A DNA stretch of 51,763 nt from Acidimicrobiales bacterium (GTDB taxonomy: Bacteria; Actinomycetota; Acidimicrobiia; Acidimicrobiales; SZUA-35), in NCBI GenBank assembly GCA_024638815.1, contig JAHEJM010000018.1, positions 1-51,763 of the forward strand, given 5' to 3'. Each line of letters starts with the position of its first letter. Position 1 is the stretch's first letter. The position numbers and the translations under genes are program-made. The notes beneath the pieces are model-generated. The model was not told the origin of the DNA and searched no databases. It saw nothing but the letters and a program-made list of their open reading frames with translations. Shown piece by piece: positions 27,526 through 40,713 of the stretch.

Positions 27526-28728
27526 GTGCACGACGATGATGGCAGTGAGGGGCTCAGAATCGGCTTCGTCACGGCCTTCCCGCCCGGCAGGAACAGCCTG
27601 AACGAGTTCGGGTGGCACTGCGTGACCAACCTTGCCGCCAAACCCGAGGTGGCGGAGATCGTACTTTTCGCCGACCAAACCGACGAGGGCCCGCCGAGTC
27701 CCGTGTCGGGAGTCGAGGCCAGGACCGCCTGGCGTTTCAACAGTGCTCTGAACCCTCTCAGAATCGCGTGGCACGTGGGTCGATCCCGGCCCGACGTTGT
27801 CATGTTCAACCTTCAGTTCGCCACCTTCGGAGACACCAAGATCGCCGGCGGGTTGGGTCTTCTGACCCCCCTGGTGCTGCGGCTCATGAAGGTGCCGACG
27901 GTCGTGATACTCCATAATCTCGTCGAGAACGTCGACATGCAGGATGCGGGGTTTGCCCGGTCATCGGTGATGGCTCGACTGCTCAAGGGGGCCGGCACCG
28001 CCCTGACCAAGGCCATACTCCGAGCCGACTATGTGGCGCTGACCATTCCCCGCTATGTCGAGTTGCTTCGCTCCAAATACGGCAGCGACAACGTGCTGCT
28101 CGCTCCTCACGGTGCCTTCGACGAGATCGACGAACCGACCTACGAACCGCCCCCCGGCACCAGGAAGGTACTCGCCTTCGGTAAGTGGGGAACCTACAAG
28201 ACGGTCGAGATCCTCATCGAGGCGTACCGCGAACTGCTGGAGCGGGGCTATGACGACGTGGGGATCGTCATCGCCGGAACCGACAGCCCGAACTCGCCCG
28301 GCTATCTGGCCGGGGTTCAGGCCGATTGTGCCGATCTGGCCGACGTGACGTTCCCCGGCTACGTCGCCGAGAACGATGTGCCTCGACTCTTCACCGAATC
28401 CGCCGTCACGGTCTTCCCCTACACATCGACAACCGGTAGCTCCGGTGTCCTCCACCAGGCCGGAAGCTTTGGTCGATGTGCCGTGCTTCCCTCCATCGGC
28501 GACTTCATCGAAGTCATCGAGGAGGAAGGATTCGTGGGTGAGTACTTCGAGCCCGGCGATGCCGGCAGCCTGGCCGATGCCCTGGCCAAACTGCTCGACG
28601 ACGACCGGCTCCGCCTGGAACAGGGCCGTCGCAACTTCGCCGCCGCCTCCGGGATCCCCATGGCCGAGGTCATGGATTGGCATCTGTTCCACATGCAGCG
28701 GATTCTCGACCAGCGGGCTCGGAAGTGA
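27526..28728 (+). CDS. Family-4-like glycosyltransferase
   Basis: 400 aa, GT-B fold. N-terminal Rossmann half starts RIGFVTAFPPGRNSLNEFGW; the C-terminal half has FGKWGTYKTVEILIEAY, VTFPGYVAENDVPRLFTES, FPYTSTTGSSGVLHQAGSFG and FEPGDAGSLADALAKLL, the donor-binding layout of GT4 retaining enzymes. Likely transfers a sugar in polysaccharide assembly. Start chosen at GTG 27526 with GAGAGGA five nt before it. First of ten nearly gapless + strand genes; its stop overlaps the next start (GTGA 28725-28728). Confidence 0.85.
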   Translation: MHDDDGSEGLRIGFVTAFPPGRNSLNEFGWHCVTNLAAKPEVAEIVLFADQTDEGPPSPVSGVEARTAWRFNSALNPLRIAWHVGRSRPDVVMFNLQFATFGDTKIAGGLGLLTPLVLRLMKVPTVVILHNLVENVDMQDAGFARSSVMARLLKGAGTALTKAILRADYVALTIPRYVELLRSKYGSDNVLLAPHGAFDEIDEPTYEPPPGTRKVLAFGKWGTYKTVEILIEAYRELLERGYDDVGIVIAGTDSPNSPGYLAGVQADCADLADVTFPGYVAENDVPRLFTESAVTVFPYTSTTGSSGVLHQAGSFGRCAVLPSIGDFIEVIEEEGFVGEYFEPGDAGSLADALAKLLDDDRLRLEQGRRNFAAASGIPMAEVMDWHLFHMQRILDQRARK

Positions 28729-29597
28729 ACAAGATCGACACCGCCCACGCTCCGGCGCCGACGGCCGAAGCACTTGGCTTGACCTCGGGCTCCGAGGAAC
28801 TGGAGCGCTACCGAACGTGGGCCACGACATCGCTCGGTGTCGATCCGGTGATCTCGGTCGTGATCCCGGCCTTCAACGAGGAGGAACGTATCCTCCCGAC
28901 CATTGGTGCCATCGCCTCACATCTGTGCAGTAGGGGGGAACCGTGGGAACTGATCATCAGCGACGATGGAAGCACGGATCGTACCCGTGAGATCGTCGGT
29001 GAGCTCGGTCTCGCCAACACCACAGTGATCGAGACTGCCGTGAACACCGGAAAAGGCGGTGCCGTCCGCCGCGGCGTGCAGGCGGCACGCGGCCACTACA
29101 TTCTCTTCGCCGACGCCGACCAGGCAACGCCGATCGAACAGTTCGGCCTTCTTCTCGATCCCGTCCGCTCCGGCGAGGCCGACATCGCCGTCGGCTCACG
29201 GGCCGCCACCGGTGCCGACGTAATCGGCAAATCGCGTGGTCGGCGACTTCTGTCGGAAGGCCTCCGACACATCGTACGCATCGGCTTCGGCCTATCCCAT
29301 CACGACACGCAATGCGGTTTCAAACTGTTCAGCCGGGATGCCGCCGACCGCCTCTTCCCGGTTCAGCGGATCAACGGTTTCTCGTTCGATCTCGAGCTGC
29401 TTTTCATTGCCAGCCGCTCCGGGCTTCGGGTCACCGAGGTTGCAGTCAGATGGTTCGACTCGCCCGGGTCAACGGTCCAGGGTGGGCGCGACACTGTGCG
29501 ATTCCTGCGAGATCTGGGCCGAATCCGTCTGAATGACGCACTCGGCCGCTACGGCGGAGCATGCCGGCCGACGGCGGGGCAGACAGAAGGAGACTGA
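28725..29597 (+). CDS. Family-2 glycosyltransferase (polyprenyl-phosphate sugar synthase type)
   Basis: 290 aa, GT-A fold. VVIPAFNEEERI (~45-56), DDGSTDRT (~80-87) and the metal-binding DAD (130-132), then GSRAATGA, DTQCGFKLF and VAVRWFDSPGS, the pattern of DPM1/ALG5-like enzymes that load a sugar on a polyprenyl phosphate. No membrane segment visible, so probably membrane-associated from the cytosol. Co-translated with the upstream glycosyltransferase and only 2 nt from the STAS gene, tying sugar transfer to the signalling genes. Confidence 0.85.
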   Translation: MNKIDTAHAPAPTAEALGLTSGSEELERYRTWATTSLGVDPVISVVIPAFNEEERILPTIGAIASHLCSRGEPWELIISDDGSTDRTREIVGELGLANTTVIETAVNTGKGGAVRRGVQAARGHYILFADADQATPIEQFGLLLDPVRSGEADIAVGSRAATGADVIGKSRGRRLLSEGLRHIVRIGFGLSHHDTQCGFKLFSRDAADRLFPVQRINGFSFDLELLFIASRSGLRVTEVAVRWFDSPGSTVQGGRDTVRFLRDLGRIRLNDALGRYGGACRPTAGQTEGD

Positions 29598-29599
29598 CC

Positions 29600-29938
29600 G
29601 TGCATCTCGACATCGAGACCGTGGGAACCGGCAATCAGGTGTCAATGGTTCTCGCCGGACGATTCGACGCTCACGAGGCCGACCCGGTTCTGACCGGGCT
29701 CAATCGGCTGCTCGACAACGGTGCCAGGATCATCGGGCTCGACCTGCAAAAGGTCGAGTTCATCGACTCCACCGGCCTCGCCGTGTTGACCAGAGTCATG
29801 AAGCGGGCCCGGGAACTGGGGGGTGACCTGGTTCTGGTCGCCCCGTCCACGCCGGTCCGCGTCATCCTGGAACTCACCGCGCTCGACCGAGCATTCGTCA
29901 TTCGAGATTCCGGTCCCGGTGTTCCCCTCGACCGCTGA
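29600..29938 (+). CDS. STAS-domain anti-anti-sigma-type protein 1
   Basis: 112 aa, single STAS domain. The phospho-site motif is EFIDSTGLAVL, with the Ser that anti-sigma-type kinases phosphorylate. Start at GTG 29600 with GAAGGAGA upstream. It lies immediately before a SpoIIE phosphatase, its expected activator. Part of a partner-switch set with the ATPase and the second STAS protein. Confidence 0.88.
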   Translation: MHLDIETVGTGNQVSMVLAGRFDAHEADPVLTGLNRLLDNGARIIGLDLQKVEFIDSTGLAVLTRVMKRARELGGDLVLVAPSTPVRVILELTALDRAFVIRDSGPGVPLDR

Positions 29939-29945
29939 CCAAGCA

Positions 29946-31457
29946 ATGAGTGTGGACCAATCGACCACCGTGCTCCACGTCCTTCCTGCCGTGTTCAACG
30001 ACATCCGGGAGGAGCTGGACCACATCTCCGGGGCCTGGCTGGCCGCCGGGGCCGAGTGTGTCCTCGTCGATCGTGCCGGTCTCCACTTCCTGCTCGCCGG
30101 CAACCCAACCTGGAGTTCGTCCCGTGTCGAGGCCGACCTCGAAGTCTTCGACCCGGTGGCGACATTGGTCGTCGAGGGCGTCGGGCCGGGCTGGGCCCAG
30201 ACCCGCCTGTCGGCCGACGCTCGCATGTTGGATCGACTTGCCACCACCAGATCCCAGTTGTCCCACACGACCGCGGCGTTGGTGGAAGCCAATGATCAGG
30301 CCTTGGCCTTCCACCGATTGGCCACGAGCTCGACGACATCACTTGGGCTCGTCGACATCATGCACGACCTTGCCGACGAGGCCCACCGGCTGACCGGTGC
30401 GCCGGCAATCGCCATTCTGGCTCCCGACTCCCCCATCGTGCTGGCGGGCGACCACGATCTGGGCAAGACCCTTCTCGACATGGTCCATGCCGAGGCCATG
30501 TCCGAATCCGGCGTGATCCGTCGGGTTTCGAGTGGCCTGACCCACGACGTGCTGGTCACCCCGATAGGCCATGACGAACCGGGCCTCTTGATCGTGGCCG
30601 GTCCGGCCGATGGCCGCATTCACAGCCCGACCCGCAAGCTGGCGGCGGCCATCGCCGGTCATCTCGGCGGGCTGATGAAGCGTGCCCGGTCCCACCAACA
30701 GGAACTGGCCGACGCCAGACTGCGTCATGAGGTGGAAGCGGCGTCGTTCCTTGCCGCCCAGGTTCTGCCCCGTCGCAGCCCGGCCGTTCCCGGACTCGAC
30801 CTGTACGCTCGAAACCAACCGGCTCGGTTGGCCAGCGGCGACTACTACACCTGGACCATGACCCGACACGGACTTGTGTTCGCGGTCGGTGATGTCTCGG
30901 GCAAGGGCCTCCCGGCCGCTCTGGTCATGACGATGTTGTCGACGGCCACCACCGCCGCCGCCCACCGTGACAACACCGGGAATCCGGCGGTGATCCTTGC
31001 CGAAATCAGTGCCGACGTGTACGACTATCTGTCCGATTCGGGCGTGTTCGTCACAACCGTCATCGGTGTGTGGGAGCCGGAGTCCGGCGTCGTGTCCATC
31101 GTCAACGCCGGCCATTCGCCCGTTCTGTTCAACCAGCAGGGCTGCGTCGAGCCGGTTCCACCCCACGTGCCGCCTCTCGGCGTGCTGCCCGACGTCAGCG
31201 CCAACGCCGTATCGTTCGAACTAGTACCGAATGATCTTCTGCTGATCGGATCGGATGGGTTGGTGGAACAGGCTGACGGCGACGGTCTTCAGTTCGGACA
31301 GGATCGTTTGGCCGGGGCTGTGGCCGCCAACCAAGGGCGAACGGCGGCCGAGCTGGTCGAGAAGCTGTTCGTGCTGGTGGAATCCCACTGCGGCCCACAA
31401 CCGCAGGACGATGATCGCACCCTTTTGGTGGTACGTCGGACGGGGGCGAGACGGTGA
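29946..31457 (+). CDS. GAF-PP2C (SpoIIE-type) phosphatase
   Basis: 503 aa, soluble. An N-terminal segment (~1-85) of unclear fold, a predicted coiled coil (~90-125), a GAF-like sensor region (~130-250) and a SpoIIE/RsbU-type PP2C domain (~285-500). Metal-site motifs: SGDYYTW (Asp299), GDVSGKGLPAALVM (Asp316), AGHSP and a final QDDDRTLLVV. The usual GGDfyD is SGDYYT here, so its second Asp is Thr. Predicted to dephosphorylate one or both neighbouring STAS proteins in response to a ligand at the GAF or N-terminal domain. Confidence 0.9.
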   Translation: MSVDQSTTVLHVLPAVFNDIREELDHISGAWLAAGAECVLVDRAGLHFLLAGNPTWSSSRVEADLEVFDPVATLVVEGVGPGWAQTRLSADARMLDRLATTRSQLSHTTAALVEANDQALAFHRLATSSTTSLGLVDIMHDLADEAHRLTGAPAIAILAPDSPIVLAGDHDLGKTLLDMVHAEAMSESGVIRRVSSGLTHDVLVTPIGHDEPGLLIVAGPADGRIHSPTRKLAAAIAGHLGGLMKRARSHQQELADARLRHEVEAASFLAAQVLPRRSPAVPGLDLYARNQPARLASGDYYTWTMTRHGLVFAVGDVSGKGLPAALVMTMLSTATTAAAHRDNTGNPAVILAEISADVYDYLSDSGVFVTTVIGVWEPESGVVSIVNAGHSPVLFNQQGCVEPVPPHVPPLGVLPDVSANAVSFELVPNDLLLIGSDGLVEQADGDGLQFGQDRLAGAVAANQGRTAAELVEKLFVLVESHCGPQPQDDDRTLLVVRRTGARR

Positions 31458-31918
31458 GGCTCCGTGATCCGGTGGAACTCGTCCTGCCCGCCACCACGTT
31501 GTCGACCCGGATCATCGGGCCCTGGTTGAAGGCCGTACTCGAAGTCGGCCATGGGCCGGAGCTGGCGACCGACCTGGGATCAAGAGCCGAGCTGGCCCTG
31601 GTCGAGCTGTGCAACAACGTCGTAGTGCACGGATACGGGGAGGAGGGTGGCCGTATAGGCCTGGTCGCCCGAGTCGACGACGACGGTCTCACGGTCACCG
31701 TTGTGGACTCCTGCCCTGAGTTCGATCCCGCCACGGTGGCCGAACCCGAGCAGGTCCAGGTCCACGGATACGGCCTCATGATCATACGGAAACTGACCGA
31801 TGGGTTCGATGTCGGCCGCGAAGACGGCAGGAACCGGTGGCGGTTGCGGTTTACCACCTCGCAACCGACCCAGGTCGGGCCAGGAAGCGAAAAGAGGATT
31901 GCACATGGAGATCCGTAG
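31454..31918 (+). CDS. Anti-sigma-type serine kinase (HATPase_c_2)
   Basis: 154 aa, GHKL ATPase of the RsbW/SpoIIAB type. N-box AELALVELCNNVVVHGY (Asn54/55) and G-boxes VDSCPEFDP and HGYGLMIIRKL. It would phosphorylate STAS proteins and bind a partner protein. Start GTG overlaps the phosphatase stop (GTGA 31454-31457). No sigma factor is encoded in the window, so its target lies elsewhere or is not a sigma factor. Confidence 0.88.
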   Translation: MRLRDPVELVLPATTLSTRIIGPWLKAVLEVGHGPELATDLGSRAELALVELCNNVVVHGYGEEGGRIGLVARVDDDGLTVTVVDSCPEFDPATVAEPEQVQVHGYGLMIIRKLTDGFDVGREDGRNRWRLRFTTSQPTQVGPGSEKRIAHGDP

Positions 31919-32222
31919 CACGAGTTCCACCATCACGGTTGGACGAGTTATCGTCGACGGTCGCCTCGACGCCACCAGCGCACCGGATCTGCGACGTGCC
32001 CTCACCGACCATGTGGACCGAGGCATCGTCGATCTCGTCGTCGACCTGGCCGCCGTCACCTTCATCGACTCGGCCGGTCTGGCCGCCCTGGTCAGTGGGA
32101 TGAAGCGCTTGAGGCAGGACGGCGGCGACCTCAGACTGGTTCGACCGGCGACGGCCGACGCGTTCCGGGTGTTCGAATTGACCCGATTCGATCGGGTCTT
32201 TCGTTTCACCGAAGCCAACTAG
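31905..32222 (+). CDS. STAS-domain anti-anti-sigma-type protein 2
   Basis: 105 aa. A second STAS domain with phospho-site TFIDSAGLAALVSG and the usual C-terminal helix. The ATG (31905) lies 14 bp inside the 3' end of the ATPase gene, with AAAGAGGA as ribosome binding site. Similar in layout to STAS 1 but clearly diverged, so the two may answer different inputs or act in series. Confidence 0.9.
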   Translation: MEIRSTSSTITVGRVIVDGRLDATSAPDLRRALTDHVDRGIVDLVVDLAAVTFIDSAGLAALVSGMKRLRQDGGDLRLVRPATADAFRVFELTRFDRVFRFTEAN

Positions 32223-32238
32223 ACCGGCGGCGCCGACC

Positions 32239-32631
32239 GTGTCCAGAACCACAGTTCTCGTCGTCGACGATGATGATGTCACCCGCCTCGTGCTCCGCCA
32301 TCAGCTGGGCAGACTCGGACACGACGTGATCGAGGCCGGCGGCCCGGTCGAGGCACTCGCCATCCTGTCGGGCACGCGGGTGGATCTGATCATCAGCGAT
32401 CACGACATGCCGGGGATGAGTGGACTCGAGCTCCGCGGGCGCCTCGGCCCCGACCTCGGCGTACCATTCGTCCTGTTGACGGGGTTCGCCGATGCCGACG
32501 AGCTCGGCGGCGCGACCGGCGCGTTGAGTACGACAGCGGCCTTCCTGACCAAGCCGGTGTCGAGTCCGGCTCTCGGCACCCTACTCACCCGACTACTCTC
32601 CGAGGAGGCGCCGGATGCCGAGGACTCCTGA
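32239..32631 (+). CDS. Single-domain response regulator (CheY-like)
   Basis: 130 aa receiver domain. Acidic pocket DDDD (10-13), phospho-acceptor Asp54 (IISDHDMPGMSG), Thr81 and Lys105 (FLTKPV). No output domain, so it works by protein contact or as a phosphate shuttle. GTG start. A 17-nt overlap with the next gene suggests tight coupling. Confidence 0.92.
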   Translation: MSRTTVLVVDDDDVTRLVLRHQLGRLGHDVIEAGGPVEALAILSGTRVDLIISDHDMPGMSGLELRGRLGPDLGVPFVLLTGFADADELGGATGALSTTAAFLTKPVSSPALGTLLTRLLSEEAPDAEDS

Positions 32632-33451
32632 TCCTCGGACACCGCTCGGGGTGGCGGCCCGGCAACCAGTGTCCGGTGCTGTCCTCGTTGTCGAGGACAG
32701 CACCGAATCGCAGCTTGTGGTGGCAGCCCAGTTGGAACACCTCGGCTACGAGTTCGAGATCGTGGACAATGGCGAGGCGGCGCTCGATGCCCTGGGACGA
32801 TCCCGGTTTTCGATTGCGCTGGTCGACTGGCATCTGCCCGGGATGGACGGTCTCGAGATGATTCGTCGCCTTCGGGAAAGGGAACGACGACATGACCGAC
32901 CCAGAACCTCGGTTGTGTCGCTGACCGCACGAAGCATGCCCGGTGACATCGAGGCCTGCCTGTCGGCCGGCGCCGACGAGCATCTGGCCAAACCGGCAGG
33001 CCTCGCCGAGCTCGGGAGCGTCCTGCGCCGATTCGGGAACGAGTCAACCGACCATGAGTCGGCCACCCCGGACACCACCGGGCCCGGTCCATCCACCGGC
33101 CAGGTCATCGACACAGCCACCCTCGATCGGTTGCTGGCCGACATCGGCGACGCCGACGTCTTCCGTACGGTGGTTCGCACCTACCTCGACCAAATGCCAC
33201 AGCGGCTCGCCACCTTGGCCCAGGCCCGGCGGCAAGGAGCCCAAGCCGTTCTGAGCGCGGCCCATTCACTGAGGGGAACCAGCGCCACCCTCGGCGCGTC
33301 GAGACTGACCGAGACGGCGGCGACATTCGAGGCCGATGCCAGGCTGGGTCGCTGCGGTTCGCCCGACGCGCTGCACGAGCTCGAACAGTTGGCTCGACTC
33401 ACCTCTCAGGCCATGGAGCAGTTCATCGATGCGATTGGAGCCGAACGATGA
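32615..33451 (+). CDS. Receiver-Hpt phosphorelay protein
   Basis: 278 aa. Receiver domain (~20-140) with VVEDS (25-29), phospho-acceptor Asp71 (LVDWHLPGMDGLE), Thr104 and Lys126; a linker rich in Thr/Pro/Ser; then an Hpt domain (~165-275) whose phospho-His is His217 in AAHSLRGTSATLGA. The His-x-x-Lys-Gly of many Hpt domains is His-Ser-Leu-Arg-Gly. It can receive phosphate on Asp71 from the kinase encoded downstream and pass it on from His217, perhaps to the single receiver. Confidence 0.92.
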   Translation: MPRTPDPRTPLGVAARQPVSGAVLVVEDSTESQLVVAAQLEHLGYEFEIVDNGEAALDALGRSRFSIALVDWHLPGMDGLEMIRRLRERERRHDRPRTSVVSLTARSMPGDIEACLSAGADEHLAKPAGLAELGSVLRRFGNESTDHESATPDTTGPGPSTGQVIDTATLDRLLADIGDADVFRTVVRTYLDQMPQRLATLAQARRQGAQAVLSAAHSLRGTSATLGASRLTETAATFEADARLGRCGSPDALHELEQLARLTSQAMEQFIDAIGAER

Positions 33452-33981
33452 AGGGTGTGTTGTTCAATGTCGTTCAAGAGGTGGTTGAGGAGACCTACGG
33501 CGAGGACACATGGGATGACCTGTTGGACGACGCCGGACTCGAAGGCGCCTATACCGCCCTTGGCGACTACCCCGACCACGAGTTGGTAGCACTGGTCGCC
33601 GCTGCGTCACTCAGAACCGGACTCGGCCCGGACGCCGTGCTCCGGACCGTCGGTCGTCTCGCCTTACCAAGGCTTCTGGATCGTCTGCCCCCGACGGTAC
33701 CGCTGGCCGACGAACCGATGGCGTTTGTCCGCAGTGTCAACGACATCATCCATCCCGAGGTTCTCAAGCTGTATCCGGCCTCACACCCCCCGGTCTTCGA
33801 CTGTAAGGACGACGGCGACGGTCTGATGGTCCGCTACCGATCGACCCGTAGGCTTCCGGATCTCGCTCATGGCTTGTTGGAGGCCGTGGACGACCACTTC
33901 GAGCAATCGGTTTCCGTCGAGCGCATCGCCGACGACGACGAAGCCAACGCCGTGTTCCTCGTCCGGGTCGGCGAAGCGTGA
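33448..33981 (+). CDS. H-NOX haem-based gas sensor (HNOB)
   Basis: 177 aa, the full H-NOX length. MKGVLFNVVQEVVEETYGED is the family N-terminus. The proximal haem ligand is His102 (NDIIHPEVLKLYP), the distal pocket proline region is HPPVFD (113-118), and the propionate-binding YxSxR motif is Tyr130, Ser132, Arg134. The Tyr that stabilises O2 in oxygen-binding H-NOX (near position 140) is absent, predicting a nitric-oxide-selective sensor. Overlaps the receiver-Hpt gene by ATGA and the kinase gene by GTGA, the classic H-NOX/kinase pairing. Confidence 0.95.
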   Translation: MKGVLFNVVQEVVEETYGEDTWDDLLDDAGLEGAYTALGDYPDHELVALVAAASLRTGLGPDAVLRTVGRLALPRLLDRLPPTVPLADEPMAFVRSVNDIIHPEVLKLYPASHPPVFDCKDDGDGLMVRYRSTRRLPDLAHGLLEAVDDHFEQSVSVERIADDDEANAVFLVRVGEA

Positions 33982-34895
33982 ACCGTGCCGGCGAGCCGGG
34001 CGACGAGGCCGATCGGCTACGTCGCCTGGAGCGTCGGCTCCAACGGGAGCGTACCGCCCGCCGGACGGCGGAGCAGATCGCCGAATCGCGTACCCGAGAC
34101 CTCTATGAGGCGAACCGCGATCTCGATCAACAGATCATGGAACGCACGGCCGAACTGGACCGGGCACTGGTGGCCGCGACACGAGCCAGCGAGACGAAGT
34201 CGGCATTTCTGGCCGAGATGAGCCATCAACTGAAGACGCCACTGAATGGGCTGATCGGCATGCTCGAGTTGGTCGACCTCGACACGGTGGACGACTGCAA
34301 CTCGGAGCGATTGACGGTGGCCGTGCACTCCGCGAGACGGCTCGAACGGCTCATCTCCCGCCTGATCGTGTACTCCGATCTCGATGGTGCCGACCTCACC
34401 CGCTCGCCCCGCCATCGGTCAGTCGTTGACGTGGTTTCCGATCTCCACGACCGATGGAGCGGCGACTGTCTTCAGGTCGGTCAGCTGCTCAGCGTCGAGG
34501 AGATCATGGAGGCCGATATCGTCGTGGCTCATCCCCCATTGGACCTGGCGCTGGACGAGGTCATGAGCAACGTGGTGAATCACGCCGGGCGAGGAGCCGT
34601 CCGGATTCAAACCCGGCTTGTCCAGGCTGAGCGAACAGATGAGGTCGCACCCCACGACGTCGTCCTCCGGATTCTCGATCCCGGCCCTGGACTGCCGGCT
34701 GAGTCGACCGTCGAGGTCGATTGTCTTGCTCCCGGCGATCCGACCAGGACGGCCGACCGCCCGGCCGGGCTGGGTCTGGCCCTGATCGACGCTGCGGTGC
34801 GGGCCCTGGGCGGGAATTGGGGCCCGGTCATCGAGGGGTACCAGAACGGCGTGGCCATCCGACTGAGGGCTGCCGTTCCGGCCGAGTCAGCCTGA
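33978..34895 (+). CDS. Cytosolic histidine kinase partnered with H-NOX
   Basis: 305 aa, no membrane segment and no own sensor domain. A long N-terminal coiled coil (~10-75) with DLYEANRDLDQQIMERTAEL resembles that of H-NOX-associated kinases; the H-box is SHQLKTPLN with His83; the N-box DEVMSNVVNHAG and G-boxes DPGPGLP and GLGLALID are intact. Ligand-bound H-NOX proteins typically inhibit such kinases. Presumed phosphate donor for the receiver-Hpt protein encoded just upstream. Its last 9 nt overlap the convergent membrane-protein gene. Confidence 0.9.
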   Translation: MNRAGEPGDEADRLRRLERRLQRERTARRTAEQIAESRTRDLYEANRDLDQQIMERTAELDRALVAATRASETKSAFLAEMSHQLKTPLNGLIGMLELVDLDTVDDCNSERLTVAVHSARRLERLISRLIVYSDLDGADLTRSPRHRSVVDVVSDLHDRWSGDCLQVGQLLSVEEIMEADIVVAHPPLDLALDEVMSNVVNHAGRGAVRIQTRLVQAERTDEVAPHDVVLRILDPGPGLPAESTVEVDCLAPGDPTRTADRPAGLGLALIDAAVRALGGNWGPVIEGYQNGVAIRLRAAVPAESA

Positions 34896-37800
34896 CTCGT
34901 CGCCGTCCTCCGGGAGCTCGGCAGTCGCTCGAGAACGAATCACGGCGCCGCACGCCAGCACGATCAGCACGGTGGCGAACAGGTGGGCTTCCCGTCCGCC
35001 GACCCCACTCGGATTCGGTGTGACCAGGGCATCAACCCCCATGAGTTCGAGCAGCTCGTCCTGGGTCAGGTCGGCGTGGGCGTCGTTGGCCACACTGTCG
35101 ACACCATCGGCCAGGCCACGGCGAACCGAGACGGACTCCGAACAGTCGAGGTCTCCGATGTCGTCCACGACGACGACGTCGTCGGGTATGGACAGATCCT
35201 GATACTCGTTCTCGGGAATGAGCAGGACGCCTTCAACCAGCATCGGATTCTCGTCCAGTTTGTCCAGGACCACCACGTGAGCGCCGGCAGTCACCTCGAC
35301 GACACCGAGATCGTGATAGACGAGTCGCAGGTTGACCGGCACGAGCTCGTTCGGGATCAGATCCTCCAGTTCGGCCGCCGAATACCGGGCACCATCGGTG
35401 GCCATTCGGTCCGGCTCGTAGATGATCGACGACTCGTAAAGCCGAAGGGCGTCGTCGGGTGAACGCAACTCCAGGTAACGGTCGAGCTCGATCGACTCGC
35501 TCCCCACATGAAACCGATTCGCCGTGGCGGCCCCCCGCAGGAGCAGACGGTAACGGTTCGATTCCGGGACGCTGATCGGGACTTTGAGCTCGGTTGATCT
35601 CGGCACACCGACAAATGAGCCGGTCAGTGTGCCGAACAGCCCGGGAGTGATCATCTCATTGCGGTTCCATTTGGTGTCGGAGAAGAAAAGGTAGAGCCTG
35701 AACATGGGCGACAGGTAGTAGGCGCTGGAAACGACATCGGGATTGAAGGCGAATGTCCTGGAGCTTGGAGCGAAGAAGTGATCCAAGTTGTTCCGGGCCC
35801 AGAGGCTGACGGCTGCGCTGTTCACATCGGTGGCCACCAGGTTCACCGTGGAGCCGTCGGCCACGGCGCCGTCAAAGCCGGCCAGGTAGTGGAAGTCGTA
35901 GCAGCGGCTCAGGTTCAGCCGGGCGAAGACGGCGTCCAGATAATCCTTCCAACTGGTATCGAACAGCAGGATCTCCCTTTGGGCCGCCGCAGGGTCCGAC
36001 AGCCGGTACAACACGAAGCTGTTGTTCTCGAACACGGTCTCCACATACTCGGGCTGTGACTCGATCTGTTCACGCAGATACGTCTCGAGTTCGGGTAGGT
36101 ACTCGGCCCCGACACCCCGATTGTCCTCGATCTGCTTGTTGAGCACGATGTAGTCGAGACCGATGTCCCGAGCGATGTTCAACCACCAGTCCTGCTGGTA
36201 GTACAGCGACCGGAGCAGCAAGAAGAACTGGAACTTGTTCTCCGAATCACCGGTGAGGCCGTAGTAGAAGCTGGGCTCGTCCAGATAGTAGATGTAGAAC
36301 TTGTCGATGAACTTGTGCGGTACACCGTCGGGACCGATGACCAGCTTGGCCGTTTCGGTCGGGGGCAGGACCACGGTCTTCCCTTGGGGGAGATCTTGGA
36401 GGGCGTTCTTTAGTTCCTTGAGCTCAACGACCGGATAGGCGGAGAAGAACCCGTTGAAGTCACCCGAGCCGTAGACCGAACGGTAGGGCGCATTGGACAG
36501 GAACGGGACGAAGAAGACCGAGCCGACGGCCACGGCCAGGGCGACATAACCGGGACGCACCCGCTGGTCGAGACCGGCGGTCCCGCGCCGAGCCTCGACC
36601 CGAAGGTGTAGGCGATCGGCCGCCCATGCCAGCGGCAGCGCCATCAACAGGGGTCCCAGCATGAACAGGATCAACTGAAAACGGTGGGGGAAGCGAAGAA
36701 CCTGGACGATGGTGCTGCTGGCCGTCAGCGCCAGGTCACCAATCGGTGATTCGGTGGCGTACAACGCCCTGGTGACCGCCGACAGCGATCGATGGAAGGT
36801 GGGAAGCCAGGTCGGTTCCCCGTAACCGACCGTGGCCCAGATGGCGAATGCGGTATTGGCATAGACGACACCGAGAAGTTGGCGGTGGGGTCGGCTCCGG
36901 AACAGGGATCGGCGGACACCGGGCACGGCGATCGGGATGAAGATCAGAGCCATGTACACGATATTCGAGACGCGGGGAACCTTGGCCAGATAGTCGCCGA
37001 ATAGGATCTTGTCCATTATCCCGGCCAGATCCCACGACAGCAGGTGGACCAGCGACACCGACGCATCCCGGATGAAGTAGTAGTCGCCGGGCACGGTCTC
37101 GGAGAGGTTGGGAATCCCACGGAGGGCGATGAACTTGACGAACAGCCCGTACGGGACGATGGCCACGGAGACCAGCAGCATCATGGCCACTGCACAACGG
37201 CCGGTTGTGGTGTTCAGGAATCGTCGCAGCCGGCTCGACCACCATTCACGACCATTGGCCCCGACACCGGGCAATTCCTGCGGCCGACGCACCATCCGGA
37301 CAAGTCGTCCGGGCCCGCCACGGCGAATCCACCGAGCCAGTTCACCGAGCAGGAGGGTCGTGATACCCAGTGAAAGGAACAGGGCGAAGAGAATCAGGTA
37401 GTGGACGGCCGGGTTGAGCAGTGTGACCAGACAGGACAGCACCATACGGCGGGCCCACCTGTCGTGGCGGAACAACAAGGCGTCGAGCATGACGAAGGCG
37501 CTGACCGACATCAGCATCAGGCCCAGCACCAAGGTGTAGAAATGGGTGACCTTGGCGTAGACCATGATCATGTAGATCAAGCCGGTGGGAAAGACAGTGC
37601 CGAGATAGACGGCGTGGGTCGACAGGGAACGGAACACTCGGGCCATGAACCACGAGGTGATCAGGTAGGCACTCCAGACGATGGACGGAATCACCAACAG
37701 GACGGCAAAAGGCAGAACCTGGTAGTGACGGAGCCACGTACTGAGAAACGAGTACCGCACCCGGAACTCGTAGCCGTTGGTCAGTTGGGAGTACTCGCCC

Positions 37801-38066
37801 CTGGCCTGATCCAGGAGTTGGCTGGTCGGGTTGAAGAACGGCACCAGCTCGTCCCCGACCAGAATTCGCTTGCCACCGAGGATGTCGGGGATGGCGAGAA
37901 TCACTTCTCGAAAGATCCACCAGGAACCGAGGAAATAGAAGACCCCCACCCCCAGCGCGATCCGGTGGTGGGTGGCCAGCCGGCCCTTCCACCACCGTGC
38001 CGCGGTCTCCGATTCATCCGCCGGGCGCTCGGCCGACGATCCCGCCGGTTCGGCCCGGTGGGCCAT
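34887..38066 (-). CDS. Large polytopic membrane protein, probable GT-C-type glycosyltransferase
   Basis: 1,059 aa from ATG 38066, which overlaps the upstream stop as TGATG with GAGG four nt earlier; a start 39 nt further upstream is possible. About 10-12 hydrophobic segments fill residues ~30-530, followed by a ~480-residue hydrophilic, probably extracytoplasmic part and one closing TM helix (~1030-1048). An early loop holds GDELVPFFNP (Asp72-Glu73), placed like the acidic catalytic pair of GT-C polyprenyl-phosphate-sugar transferases. No specific family recognised. Neighbours (pyruvyl transferase, flippase, GT2, GT4) support a role in surface polysaccharide assembly. Confidence 0.65.
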   Translation of the reverse strand: MAHRAEPAGSSAERPADESETAARWWKGRLATHHRIALGVGVFYFLGSWWIFREVILAIPDILGGKRILVGDELVPFFNPTSQLLDQARGEYSQLTNGYEFRVRYSFLSTWLRHYQVLPFAVLLVIPSIVWSAYLITSWFMARVFRSLSTHAVYLGTVFPTGLIYMIMVYAKVTHFYTLVLGLMLMSVSAFVMLDALLFRHDRWARRMVLSCLVTLLNPAVHYLILFALFLSLGITTLLLGELARWIRRGGPGRLVRMVRRPQELPGVGANGREWWSSRLRRFLNTTTGRCAVAMMLLVSVAIVPYGLFVKFIALRGIPNLSETVPGDYYFIRDASVSLVHLLSWDLAGIMDKILFGDYLAKVPRVSNIVYMALIFIPIAVPGVRRSLFRSRPHRQLLGVVYANTAFAIWATVGYGEPTWLPTFHRSLSAVTRALYATESPIGDLALTASSTIVQVLRFPHRFQLILFMLGPLLMALPLAWAADRLHLRVEARRGTAGLDQRVRPGYVALAVAVGSVFFVPFLSNAPYRSVYGSGDFNGFFSAYPVVELKELKNALQDLPQGKTVVLPPTETAKLVIGPDGVPHKFIDKFYIYYLDEPSFYYGLTGDSENKFQFFLLLRSLYYQQDWWLNIARDIGLDYIVLNKQIEDNRGVGAEYLPELETYLREQIESQPEYVETVFENNSFVLYRLSDPAAAQREILLFDTSWKDYLDAVFARLNLSRCYDFHYLAGFDGAVADGSTVNLVATDVNSAAVSLWARNNLDHFFAPSSRTFAFNPDVVSSAYYLSPMFRLYLFFSDTKWNRNEMITPGLFGTLTGSFVGVPRSTELKVPISVPESNRYRLLLRGAATANRFHVGSESIELDRYLELRSPDDALRLYESSIIYEPDRMATDGARYSAAELEDLIPNELVPVNLRLVYHDLGVVEVTAGAHVVVLDKLDENPMLVEGVLLIPENEYQDLSIPDDVVVVDDIGDLDCSESVSVRRGLADGVDSVANDAHADLTQDELLELMGVDALVTPNPSGVGGREAHLFATVLIVLACGAVIRSRATAELPEDGDESG

Positions 38067-39283
38067 CAGACCTCGGACAGGACTGGAGACCGTGCTGCCG
38101 GCCATCCGCTTCGATCGGGACGTCTGAGCCAGCCTCGAACATCGCCGAAGTAGTCCGAGGCCTCAGCTCGAAGGCCGGTGGCACGATGGGCCAGCCGACC
38201 ACCCTCGCCGATGGCGTTGTCCATGGTGTCCAGGATCACGTCGGCCAACGAGGTTGGATCGAACGGCCGGTTGATGTCGACGGCCCGATCGTTCAGACTC
38301 AACTGTTCCACCAGCTCTCGAACCTTGACGTCATACATCAGGGCAACACTTGCCCGTCCCAGCGTCGCGGCGATGACCAGGGCATGCAGGCGCTCGGCGA
38401 CCAGGACGTCGCAGTCGGCGATGATCCGGCCCACCTCGGCGTGATCCCTCGGATGATGGACGACCGACACGATGTCGGGAACGCGGCTCAGGAACTCCTC
38501 CAGAACCAGAAGATCGTGGTGCTCCTTGAATCTGCTCTGCATGGGCAACGCATGGAGTTCGATCGGCGTTTTGGTCGCCACCAGGCGAAGAGCCTGTTCC
38601 AGAAGATCGAGGAAGAGCTCCCAGTTCTCGCCGTTCTCGATGTCATAGTTCAGGTTCAGGGCGATCGGCACCCGTCGACCGCCATCGGTCGACTCCGACG
38701 ATTCCGCCGACCGCCGGGAGGCGAACACCTCGGGCTCGTTGACCCAGACGGCGTCGGGCACACGCCGCAACTTCTCGGGACGGCAGCCAAGCATCCGGCA
38801 GGTGTGAAATGACCGCTGGTCCCTGACCGATACCAGGCTGGCGAGAGAGAGGATCCATCCCGCCAGCCGGCGTCCCGTCTTCGTTGTGATCGGCCCGACA
38901 CCGATATTGCTCATGAGGACGGGGCGACGGGCCACCAGGCGACAGAAGCCGACGATGGCCAGAACCATGCACAAGGTGGCATAGCGCCATCGACCGGTCG
39001 ACGGGTAGAGCTCCTTCACGATCGATCCGCCGCCGAAGATGACCACATCACTCGCCCATAGGCGGCGAATCAGCGCGAGCTTGCCGTCAGCCGTGTCGAA
39101 GACGTCGACATGGAACCGATCGGCAAGGCCGGCCGCGGTTTCGTCCGGTGCGTACGAATTGACCGAGTACCGGTGTTCGGGACCGAGCTGAGAGAGGAAG
39201 GTCTCGAGCAGGAGTTCATCGCCCAGGTTGAACTGACCGTGTGTGCCCAAAAAGACGATCCGCTTTCGGGCTTCCTCATCCAT
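38066..39283 (-). CDS. Polysaccharide pyruvyl transferase family protein
   Basis: 405 aa. FLGTHGQFNLGDELLLETFL (~10-29), VVIFGGGSIVKEL, LVSVRDQRS, ADCDVLVAERLHALVIAATLG and the C-terminal YDVKVRELV match the CsaB/WcaK-type ketal-pyruvyltransferase family, which adds pyruvate from PEP to polysaccharide sugars. Some family members have lost that activity. Translationally coupled to the large membrane protein gene; divergent from the flippase gene (137-bp gap). Confidence 0.85.
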   Translation of the reverse strand: MDEEARKRIVFLGTHGQFNLGDELLLETFLSQLGPEHRYSVNSYAPDETAAGLADRFHVDVFDTADGKLALIRRLWASDVVIFGGGSIVKELYPSTGRWRYATLCMVLAIVGFCRLVARRPVLMSNIGVGPITTKTGRRLAGWILSLASLVSVRDQRSFHTCRMLGCRPEKLRRVPDAVWVNEPEVFASRRSAESSESTDGGRRVPIALNLNYDIENGENWELFLDLLEQALRLVATKTPIELHALPMQSRFKEHHDLLVLEEFLSRVPDIVSVVHHPRDHAEVGRIIADCDVLVAERLHALVIAATLGRASVALMYDVKVRELVEQLSLNDRAVDINRPFDPTSLADVILDTMDNAIGEGGRLAHRATGLRAEASDYFGDVRGWLRRPDRSGWPAARSPVLSEV

Positions 39284-39420
39284 GACGGCTCCTCGCTTCC
39301 TGACACACGGGTTCCGTTCTTCTGTCGACCCGAATCGACCGGACTTGATCTGCTGCGGTCAAGTTCGAGTCGTCATGTTCCGAGAAACCTATGAGGTCCT
39401 CGGCTCGGAGGAGGCGGCGT

Positions 39421-40713
39421 ATGGACCAGGTCGAATCCATCGATAGTGGTGCTCGTCCCGACCGGACCAGTGGTCGGGCGCTCCTGAGCGGTGGCGCGCT
39501 CCTGGCGCTGGCCATGTTGGGGGCCAACGGCGGCAACTATGTCCTGAATCTGCTTCTGGGCCGATGGCTGAGTCCGGCGGAGTTCGCCGACGCCAATCTG
39601 ATGGTGACCTTGATGCTGTTGGTCACGGCGGTGGCGGCACCACTGCAGCTGGTGGCGGCCCGCTATGTCGGCATGCACGACGCGGCCGGAACGCTCGACC
39701 AGGGGGCGGCCGTGGTCTCATGGCTCTACCGCCGGGCGGCCATGGGCGGGCTGCTCCTGGCGATTGTCATCGGCGGACCGGCACCCCTTTGGCGCACTGT
39801 CTTCAATACCGCCAGCCCCTGGCCCTTCGTGCTGCTCGCCGTCGGAATGCCGGCCTATCTGACCCAGGCCGTCCGCCGGGGCACCCTCCAAGGACATCTC
39901 CGGTTCGGGCCCCTGGCTGCGAGCTTCCTCGCCGAGATGTTCGGGCGGCTCGGGGTGGCCGCCGGTCTGGTCGCCGCCGGTTACGGGGTCTCCGGCGCCA
40001 CGGCCGGGCTCTCGGCCTCGTTCATCGTCACCTGGGTGGTGGTTCGGATCCTGCAGCCTCCGGCGCCGGGGGGATCACTGGGCAGGGAGGCCGTACGCGA
40101 TCTTCGTCGCTACATGGCTCCTACCGCGGTTTTCCTGATCGGCCAGATCCTCATCAACAACGGCGACGTGTTGGTGGTGAAGATGGCGTTTCCCGGAGAG
40201 GCCGCAGGCGTGTACAGCGCAGTGGCCCTGATGGGACGAGCCGTGTTCTTCCTGTCGTGGTCGGCGGTGGCGACGCTGTTCCCGGCGGTCGCTCACCGGG
40301 AAGCAAGCGGATCCGACACCGACACCCTCCTGGTCGGCGGCCTGGCCGTCGTCGGCACAGCCTGCGGCGGCATGGTCGCTGCCGCCGCCCTCTTCGGCGA
40401 CGTGTTGTTTCGCTCGATCCTCGGCCCGGAGTACGCGGCGGCGGAGTCGATGTTGGTCAGCTATGCGACGGCAACGTCGCTCTTCGCCGTTGCCAACCTG
40501 GTGGTCACCCACCAGCTCTCCATGGGCAGAACGGTCCAGAGCCACCTCCTGGTCATGGGCGCGGTTGGACAGACGGTGTCGGTCATCGTGGTACGAGCAT
40601 CCATGGCGGCAGTGGTCAACGCCCAGGTACTGGCAATGTCGGCCCTCGCCGCCGTGCTGCTCGGCTCCGTCCTGTTCGAGATCCGAGCCCGGCCTACGAC
40701 CCTTGGGTCGTAG
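39421..40713 (+). CDS. Oligosaccharide flippase (Wzx/MOP superfamily)
   Basis: 430 aa, about 12 hydrophobic segments. ANGGNYVLNLLLGRWLSPAEFADANLMV at the N-terminus and the central RRYMAPTAVFLIGQILINNGDVLVVK are typical of polysaccharide-exporting MOP proteins. Probably moves a lipid-linked oligosaccharide across the membrane. Start fixed by GGAGGAGG six nt before ATG 39421. The stop codon lies inside a 15-bp perfect hairpin. Confidence 0.85.
   Translation: MDQVESIDSGARPDRTSGRALLSGGALLALAMLGANGGNYVLNLLLGRWLSPAEFADANLMVTLMLLVTAVAAPLQLVAARYVGMHDAAGTLDQGAAVVSWLYRRAAMGGLLLAIVIGGPAPLWRTVFNTASPWPFVLLAVGMPAYLTQAVRRGTLQGHLRFGPLAASFLAEMFGRLGVAAGLVAAGYGVSGATAGLSASFIVTWVVVRILQPPAPGGSLGREAVRDLRRYMAPTAVFLIGQILINNGDVLVVKMAFPGEAAGVYSAVALMGRAVFFLSWSAVATLFPAVAHREASGSDTDTLLVGGLAVVGTACGGMVAAAALFGDVLFRSILGPEYAAAESMLVSYATATSLFAVANLVVTHQLSMGRTVQSHLLVMGAVGQTVSVIVVRASMAAVVNAQVLAMSALAAVLLGSVLFEIRARPTTLGS

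Follow-up and report, generated by a model that had tools for sequence, protein, structure and literature searches.

Nitric oxide (NO) affects biofilms in many bacteria. The routes described for H-NOX proteins mostly run through cyclic di-GMP (c-di-GMP) or quorum sensing in proteobacteria (PMC8738867; this and the other papers cited here are represented by the parts of their text that were available). In Vibrio fischeri, HnoX restrains the kinase HahK, which drives syp biofilm through SypF and SypG, and SypE phosphorylates or dephosphorylates the STAS protein SypA, for which, as far as the available text goes, no evidence of an anti-sigma-antagonist role is known (PMC12369376, PMC4517449). The system considered here is a gene array on a contig of an Acidimicrobiales bacterium (JAHEJM010000018.1; hereafter the window, meaning the whole stretch of 51,763 nt, or 51.8 kb), which is contig 219 of the 227 that make up a 4.7-Mb genome (G000). 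It combines an H-NOX gene and a phosphorelay with a SpoIIE/RsbW/STAS partner switch and glycosyltransferases (GT) of families GT4 and GT2. This array is a real, conserved arrangement of known parts, and on balance we lean towards reading it as a NO-responsive polysaccharide locus, in which the phosphorelay and a sigma-independent STAS switch would control a polysaccharide synthase.

Ten genes occupy positions 27526–34895 on the + strand, and both the order and the coordinates given by the first-pass annotation were borne out by open reading frames and Pfam (all Pfam domain calls on array proteins named here lie above the curated cut-offs). The same profile search upheld its domain labels, apart from a GAF domain on the SpoIIE-type phosphatase; that label was rejected, as no Pfam family besides SpoIIE was found in the protein even at E <= 1, and its N-terminal half is left unassigned. 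The tight packing it described also held: with the preferred starts, every junction overlaps or leaves at most 16 nt. The pairs GT4/GT2, SpoIIE/RsbW, REC-Hpt/H-NOX and H-NOX/histidine kinase (HK) overlap by 4 nt, RsbW and the second STAS gene by 14 nt, and the stand-alone receiver (REC) and REC-Hpt by 17 nt, with gaps of 2 nt between GT2 and the first STAS gene (preferred start a GTG preceded by GGAG), 7 nt between this gene and SpoIIE, and 16 nt between the second STAS gene and REC. All ten frames are open, and the catalytic residues examined are kept except one glycine of RsbW. The limits of the locus had been drawn too narrowly, because the genes at 34887–40713, which encode a membrane protein, a pyruvyl transferase and a Wzx-like flippase, also have relatives in the same type of locus elsewhere.

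The grouping recurs among relatives. An HNOB search of the window's own genome and 60 relatives (61 in all) gave matches at E <= 0.001 in 28 and over the cut-off in 27, and H-NOX was present in all 12 searched genomes of the window's genus, its own included. From 27 relatives, 31 stretches were fetched and searched by tblastn with the ten array proteins and some neighbours; 14 hold both H-NOX and GT4 (L033, L035–L044, L046, L047, L054). All ten gene families are present in 12 of these 14, in a different order than in the window: REC-Hpt, H-NOX, HK, GT4, Wzx, GT2, STAS, SpoIIE, RsbW, STAS and REC, the leading REC-Hpt forming the last part of a hybrid kinase in loci that are not cut by a contig end. 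Given this single shared order, the window represents a permuted version with its Wzx-like gene downstream. A window-like layout, with the sensor block after the receiver, was seen in two loci cut by contig ends (L053, L055); a further one is cut within REC-Hpt (L057), and another holds GT4 plus a partial H-NOX that was seen by profile (72.8 bits) and missed by tblastn (L060). In two stretches (L058, L061) the cluster is missing and H-NOX gives no more than a weak or divergent match. Separately, genomes of the genus carry second, divergent H-NOX paralogues outside the GT4 cluster (L034, L059, L054:12611-13147).

Linkage extends across the order. In 248 genomes drawn evenly from it, with H-NOX counted over the cut-off and GT4 by profile A2 at E <= 1e-90 (in alignment A2 the window GT4 is 55–67% identical to 15 relatives), H-NOX was found in 23 and GT4 in 20, with both in 18, GT4 alone in two and H-NOX alone in five (Fisher p 6e-21, a value that, like the one for the second sample below, ignores kinship and is to be discounted for it). 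The two genes lie at most 5 kb apart in 15 of the 18 genomes, which span five families. H-NOX is thus uncommon in the order as a whole (23 of 248), although every searched genome of the window's genus has it. Coupling of the sensor block and the enzymes by linkage is well supported, and the mechanism that joins them would be as set out further below.

A second phylum shows a related association. When named genomes were scanned with the alignment of GT4, the best 80 of at least 562 confirmed relatives were kept; 47 of these 80 loci hold SpoIIE and RsbW with GT4, and 17 have H-NOX in the available flanks, comprising 13 that adjoin the cluster in Acidimicrobiales, three from Bacteroidota (L103, L112, L116) and one weaker match lying about 4 kb off on the other strand (L092). 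A sample of 149 genomes, taken from the family around one Lutibacter genome, has H-NOX in 56 and GT4 in 37, with both in 33, GT4 alone in four and H-NOX alone in 23 (p 7e-14), and the two lie within 30 kb in 28 of the 33. Twenty of those 28 loci (L142–L161), chosen because H-NOX and GT4 lie close, all contain REC, H-NOX, HK, Hpt, a TPR protein, Wzx and GT4; LytTR is present in 19, FIST and a second kinase in 13, STAS in four and, within the stretches available, REC-GT2 in seven. FIST proteins, which we take to be the family of NosP, share arrays with H-NOX in those 13 loci and also at L112:2972-4099 and L116:17806-18939. NosP is another bacterial NO sensor (PMC8738867).

Domain fusions point the same way. 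A scan for two domains in a single frame covered 131 loci, from sets that overlap (L046 and L065, for example, lie on contigs of equal length); where distinct contigs are given, those of the same size were counted as one. Receiver and GT2 are fused in 20 of these loci, GT2 and GT4 in six (five distinct contigs), SpoIIE and RsbW in five (three) and Wzx and GT2 in three (two); REC-SpoIIE, RsbW-STAS and RsbW-REC fusions each occur in one. Within the best 80 named loci, REC-GT2 was found in 15, all of Bacteroidota, and Pfam confirmed both domains in one frame at L124:17246-18442 and L116:10681-11805. Such fusions suggest joint action of the enzymes, and also that a receiver can control GT2 directly; the REC-GT2 protein of Bacteroidota is a possible directly phospho-controlled glycosyltransferase.

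The sensor and relay proteins retain features that fit such a pathway. The window H-NOX scores 116.9 bits against HNOB (curated cut-off 25.5), and its best solved-structure match is 6ocv (E 1e-19). Across an alignment of 27 rows, Y130 and S132 are invariant and H102 and R134 occur in at least 90%; H102 is presumably the proximal haem histidine, and Y130, S132 and R134 make up the Y-x-S-x-R motif. L139 sits at what we take to be the place of Tyr140 in the O2-binding Thermoanaerobacter protein, a position suggestive only as regards NO selectivity. The window HK has no sensor domain recognised by Pfam and no transmembrane segment in a hydropathy scan, which fits the expectation for a kinase served by a separate H-NOX. 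The kinase H-box, receiver Asp and Hpt His are kept in the relay, and a motif check of the switch found the acidic residues of PP2C, the N- and G-boxes of GHKL and the STAS phosphoserine sites. Across loci, catalytic motifs are retained in most cases where the match spans them.

From the genes, domains, catalytic residues, conserved linkage and fusions, we infer NO binding, a series of transfers with their direction, and a polysaccharide product, as follows. H-NOX would sense NO through its haem and set the activity of the soluble kinase encoded directly after it. Phosphate would pass from this kinase to the receiver of REC-Hpt, from there to its Hpt domain and on to the stand-alone receiver, which would alter how the SpoIIE phosphatase and the RsbW-type kinase offset each other and thereby the phosphorylation state of both STAS proteins. 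The target of unphosphorylated STAS, and perhaps of the receiver, would then be the GT2/GT4/flippase machinery and not a sigma factor, and the synthesis of a surface polysaccharide, which the enzymes probably build, would be switched on or off. By analogy with V. fischeri, NO would turn synthesis off. The catalytic residues found in these proteins are compatible with the flow put forward in the first-pass annotation, from NO through H-NOX, kinase, REC-Hpt, receiver and switch to polysaccharide, which stays a proposal. As to an NO source of the organism's own, a search for copper nitrite reductase in G000 gave two weak matches, none over the cut-off, with NirS and others outside the search.

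Whether the switch acts on a sigma factor is the question on which the most serious alternative turns. No Sigma70_r2 match lies on the 51.8-kb window contig, as against 35 elsewhere in the genome, and none was found among the scanned proteins of the array and of a relative's locus (L040); the Pfam matches of the array likewise include no DNA-binding domain. With no such match on the contig, transcription need not be what the switch controls. The linked sigma factor of a SigB/SigF-type partner switch was not found here, and the target may be an unlinked one. BldG/SigF-type switches are common in actinobacteria, and this, the RsbW family match and the 35 matches elsewhere give some weight to an account that we consider unlikely overall, namely that the RsbW-like protein works as a genuine anti-sigma factor and that an unlinked alternative sigma factor, once released by the switch, transcribes this and other surface genes. 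Such an account sits poorly with the contig-wide result and with the fusions, which link one signalling domain with another and, in Bacteroidota, a receiver with GT2. The best NCBIfam match of the SpoIIE protein is SiaA (5.1e-13, below the cut-off).

Several observations weigh against a NO-responsive polysaccharide locus of the kind preferred here. H-NOX and GT4 lie 2.25 Mb apart in one of the order genomes (G042) and on different contigs in two (G140, G146), and Mantel correlations of 0.78–0.93 (13–15 rows) are what plain vertical descent would also give. H-NOX occurs without GT4 in 11 of the 31 stretches (L031, L032, L034, L045, L048–L052, L056, L059), which the listed cut contigs alone do not explain, and in two of the 14 with both genes (L044, L054) STAS is present and SpoIIE/RsbW was not seen in the stretch. 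Within the best 80 loci, the GT4 cluster comes without H-NOX in the available flanks, some of them short, in 15 of 15 named actinobacterial loci outside Acidimicrobiales (14 with SpoIIE and RsbW; genera include Cryobacterium, Microbacterium, Actinoplanes, Nakamurella, Rhodococcus and Actinokineospora) and likewise in all 17 Chloroflexota loci (14 with both). The same is true of nine of 23 Acidimicrobiales loci found by GT4, four of which have less than 3.5 kb upstream of GT4 and five 10 kb (L062, L064, L066, L081, L087). No match to the window SpoIIE or RsbW was found in 43 Bacteroidota stretches (the 20 chosen and 23 further ones); given this and STAS in only four of 20, there is no evidence that Bacteroidota share the partner switch. 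The proposal that relay, switch and sugar transferases belong together is backed by linkage across the order, and in Bacteroidota only its pairing of H-NOX with a sugar transferase is seen. Within the switch itself, RsbW of the window has the E..N and GYGL boxes with the G1 glycine replaced by cysteine, and a minority of STAS matches across loci lack the serine.

Clusters without a nearby H-NOX, and H-NOX/kinase sets without a cluster, would also be expected if two separate circuits were merely adjacent, the switch and receiver serving the polysaccharide and H-NOX, kinase and REC-Hpt addressing another target. This we regard as improbable in view of the linkage, which spans five families of the order and recurs in a second phylum, and of a Cryobacterium locus (L071) where the kinase beside an H-NOX-free cluster is a 1048-aa HK-REC-REC-Hpt hybrid, so that such a relay seems to be part of the cluster. 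No H-NOX was detected in the whole genomes of one Cryobacterium (G279) and one Chloroploca (G281). Upstream of a Microbacterium cluster, the product of L093:7756-9804 has no Pfam family, though tblastn saw kinase similarity. Since the GT/switch cluster occurs without nearby H-NOX in other actinobacteria and in Chloroflexota, the sensor looks exchangeable.

The relay also varies in its kinase. HK-REC(-Hpt) frames are present in many relatives, and one locus (L053) encodes a 650-aa PAS-HK-REC-Hpt hybrid, of which the window has REC-Hpt alone; the PAS-kinase half is absent at the window locus and has no close copy elsewhere in G000 (ten generic kinase matches, the best with 38% identity in the kinase part), which may reflect assembly loss. 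Decay or rewiring of the window copy, with its PAS-kinase half lost, its Wzx and H-NOX block moved and its circuit partly broken, is suggested by this absence and by the RsbW cysteine, and is very improbable beside ten open, tight frames with the other examined catalytic residues kept and a kinase remaining on the H-NOX side.

A broader and more tentative idea, which we would not yet favour, is that the locus belongs to a widespread class of gas-controlled polysaccharide synthases, of which the literature searched gave no description. Receiver and STAS would act directly on a GT2/GT4/flippase complex, and NO would start or stop synthesis at the enzyme level, without transcription, a sigma factor or c-di-GMP; Bacteroidota would have this control hard-wired as receiver-GT2, and lineages would have exchanged the sensor, be it H-NOX, FIST, PAS or a membrane kinase.

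Table 1. Genes of the array and its downstream neighbours in the window.
Feature	Position	Strand	Evidence and remarks
GT4 glycosyltransferase	27526..28728	+	PF13692 3.8e-17; conserved locus marker
GT2 glycosyltransferase	28725..29597	+	PF00535 3e-30
STAS protein 1	29600..29938	+	PF01740 7.9e-16 (scored from longer start 29561); candidate phosphoserine in IDSTG
SpoIIE-type PP2C phosphatase	29946..31457	+	PF07228 1.4e-42; acidic motifs present
RsbW-type GHKL serine kinase / anti-sigma-like protein	31454..31918	+	PF13581 (HATPase_c_2) 3.4e-18
STAS protein 2	31905..32222	+	PF01740 2.9e-17; candidate phosphoserine in IDSAG
Stand-alone receiver	32239..32631	+	PF00072 2.8e-15; Asp and Lys motifs
Receiver-Hpt (REC-Hpt)	32615..33451	+	PF00072 8.1e-22, PF01627 1.4e-10
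H-NOX	33448..33981	+	PF07700 (HNOB) 1.1e-33; H102, P115, Y130-S132-R134
Histidine kinase (HK)	33978..34895	+	HisKA PF00512 1.7e-13 plus ATPase domain
1072-aa multi-transmembrane protein	34887..38105	-	relatives near GT4 in other loci
Polysaccharide pyruvyl transferase	38066..39283	-	PF04230 6.8e-28
Wzx-like flippase	39391..40713	+	PF13440 5.1e-06, 26.4 bits (cut-off 23); matched by the L040 flippase

Among the sugar enzymes and their neighbours (Table 1), the window GT2 resembles polyprenyl-phosphate sugar transferases, its best NCBIfam matches, AglJ and PpgS, lying far below the cut-off. Flippase and glycosyltransferases keep company: a PF01943/PF13440 protein stands between GT4 and GT2 in L040, and the window flippase lies downstream. 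The gene for the 1072-aa membrane protein meets the last gene of the array tail to tail with a 9-nt overlap. Its product has no Pfam or NCBIfam match and shares about 53–54% identity with proteins encoded next to this cluster in Microbacterium and Rhodococcus. Its structure model is poor (mean predicted local distance difference test score 50.5), and Foldseek likened the C-terminal part to jelly-roll, carbohydrate-binding-like folds and gave one weak long match to AftD (6wby, E 0.02, TM 0.2), a hint only; the protein may be a GT-C type transferase that carries a carbohydrate-binding-like domain. Homology to a similarly placed 1094-aa protein of relatives was considered and found unsupported (hhalign probability 11), and the 1094-aa family has no sequence match among solved structures at E <= 0.01. 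The large membrane proteins are no more than candidates for a polymerase or chain-length role. Separately, a 426-aa Ig-like protein (Big_1/Invasin_D3; L040:5934-7211) and a 204-aa protein (L040:7211-7822) accompany the 1094-aa protein, an association seen in Actinomycetota, Chloroflexota and Bacteroidota loci.

A compact locus of Actinomycetota thus brings sensor, relay, STAS switch and polymer enzymes together, and the link between sensor and enzymes recurs with other wiring in Bacteroidota. It offers a place to find the target of sigma-independent STAS proteins such as SypA. Cultured Bacteroidota such as Lutibacter citreus carry the form with H-NOX, and cultured Cryobacterium and Microbacterium the form without a nearby H-NOX, which makes the system testable.

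Related switches in Pseudomonas, including the Sia system, have RpoS, FlgM or c-di-GMP as their outputs, not linked sugar transferases. Both HptB-HsbR-HsbA (PMC6482189, PMC5085249) and SiaABC(D) control biofilm, through Hpt input or a PP2C/STAS switch. In Nostoc punctiforme, HmpU-W form an Rsb-like switch implicated in hormogonium development, whose output is the STAS protein HmpV rather than a known sigma factor; an H-NOX relay is not mentioned in the available text (PMC6495340). Classic H-NOX two-component systems (Shewanella, Vibrio, Legionella) resemble the proposed one in that H-NOX regulates its partner kinase and, apart from V. fischeri, differ in outputs that are mostly c-di-GMP enzymes or quorum sensing (PMC8738867). 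No description of the locus was found in the literature searched, as judged by titles and the beginnings of abstracts, with most subscription papers outside the search; the arrangement itself is undescribed there, and the functional precedent is V. fischeri, where H-NOX acts through kinase, Hpt and STAS on polysaccharide, a precedent that corrects the first-pass annotation (PMC12369376, PMC4517449). In V. fischeri, hnoX-hahK forms its own operon, SypG activates transcription, and one response regulator combines kinase and phosphatase, whereas the single array of the window encodes SpoIIE and RsbW as separate proteins along with two STAS proteins, and no DNA-binding regulator is recognised in it. 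Compared by logic rather than by sequence, and as far as the available text of those two papers goes, the two systems share an H-NOX that adjoins its kinase, an Hpt-domain relay (SypF in V. fischeri), a serine kinase/phosphatase pair of activities on a STAS protein (there SypA alone) with no evidence of a sigma target, and an output in polysaccharide, which for the window is the predicted one.

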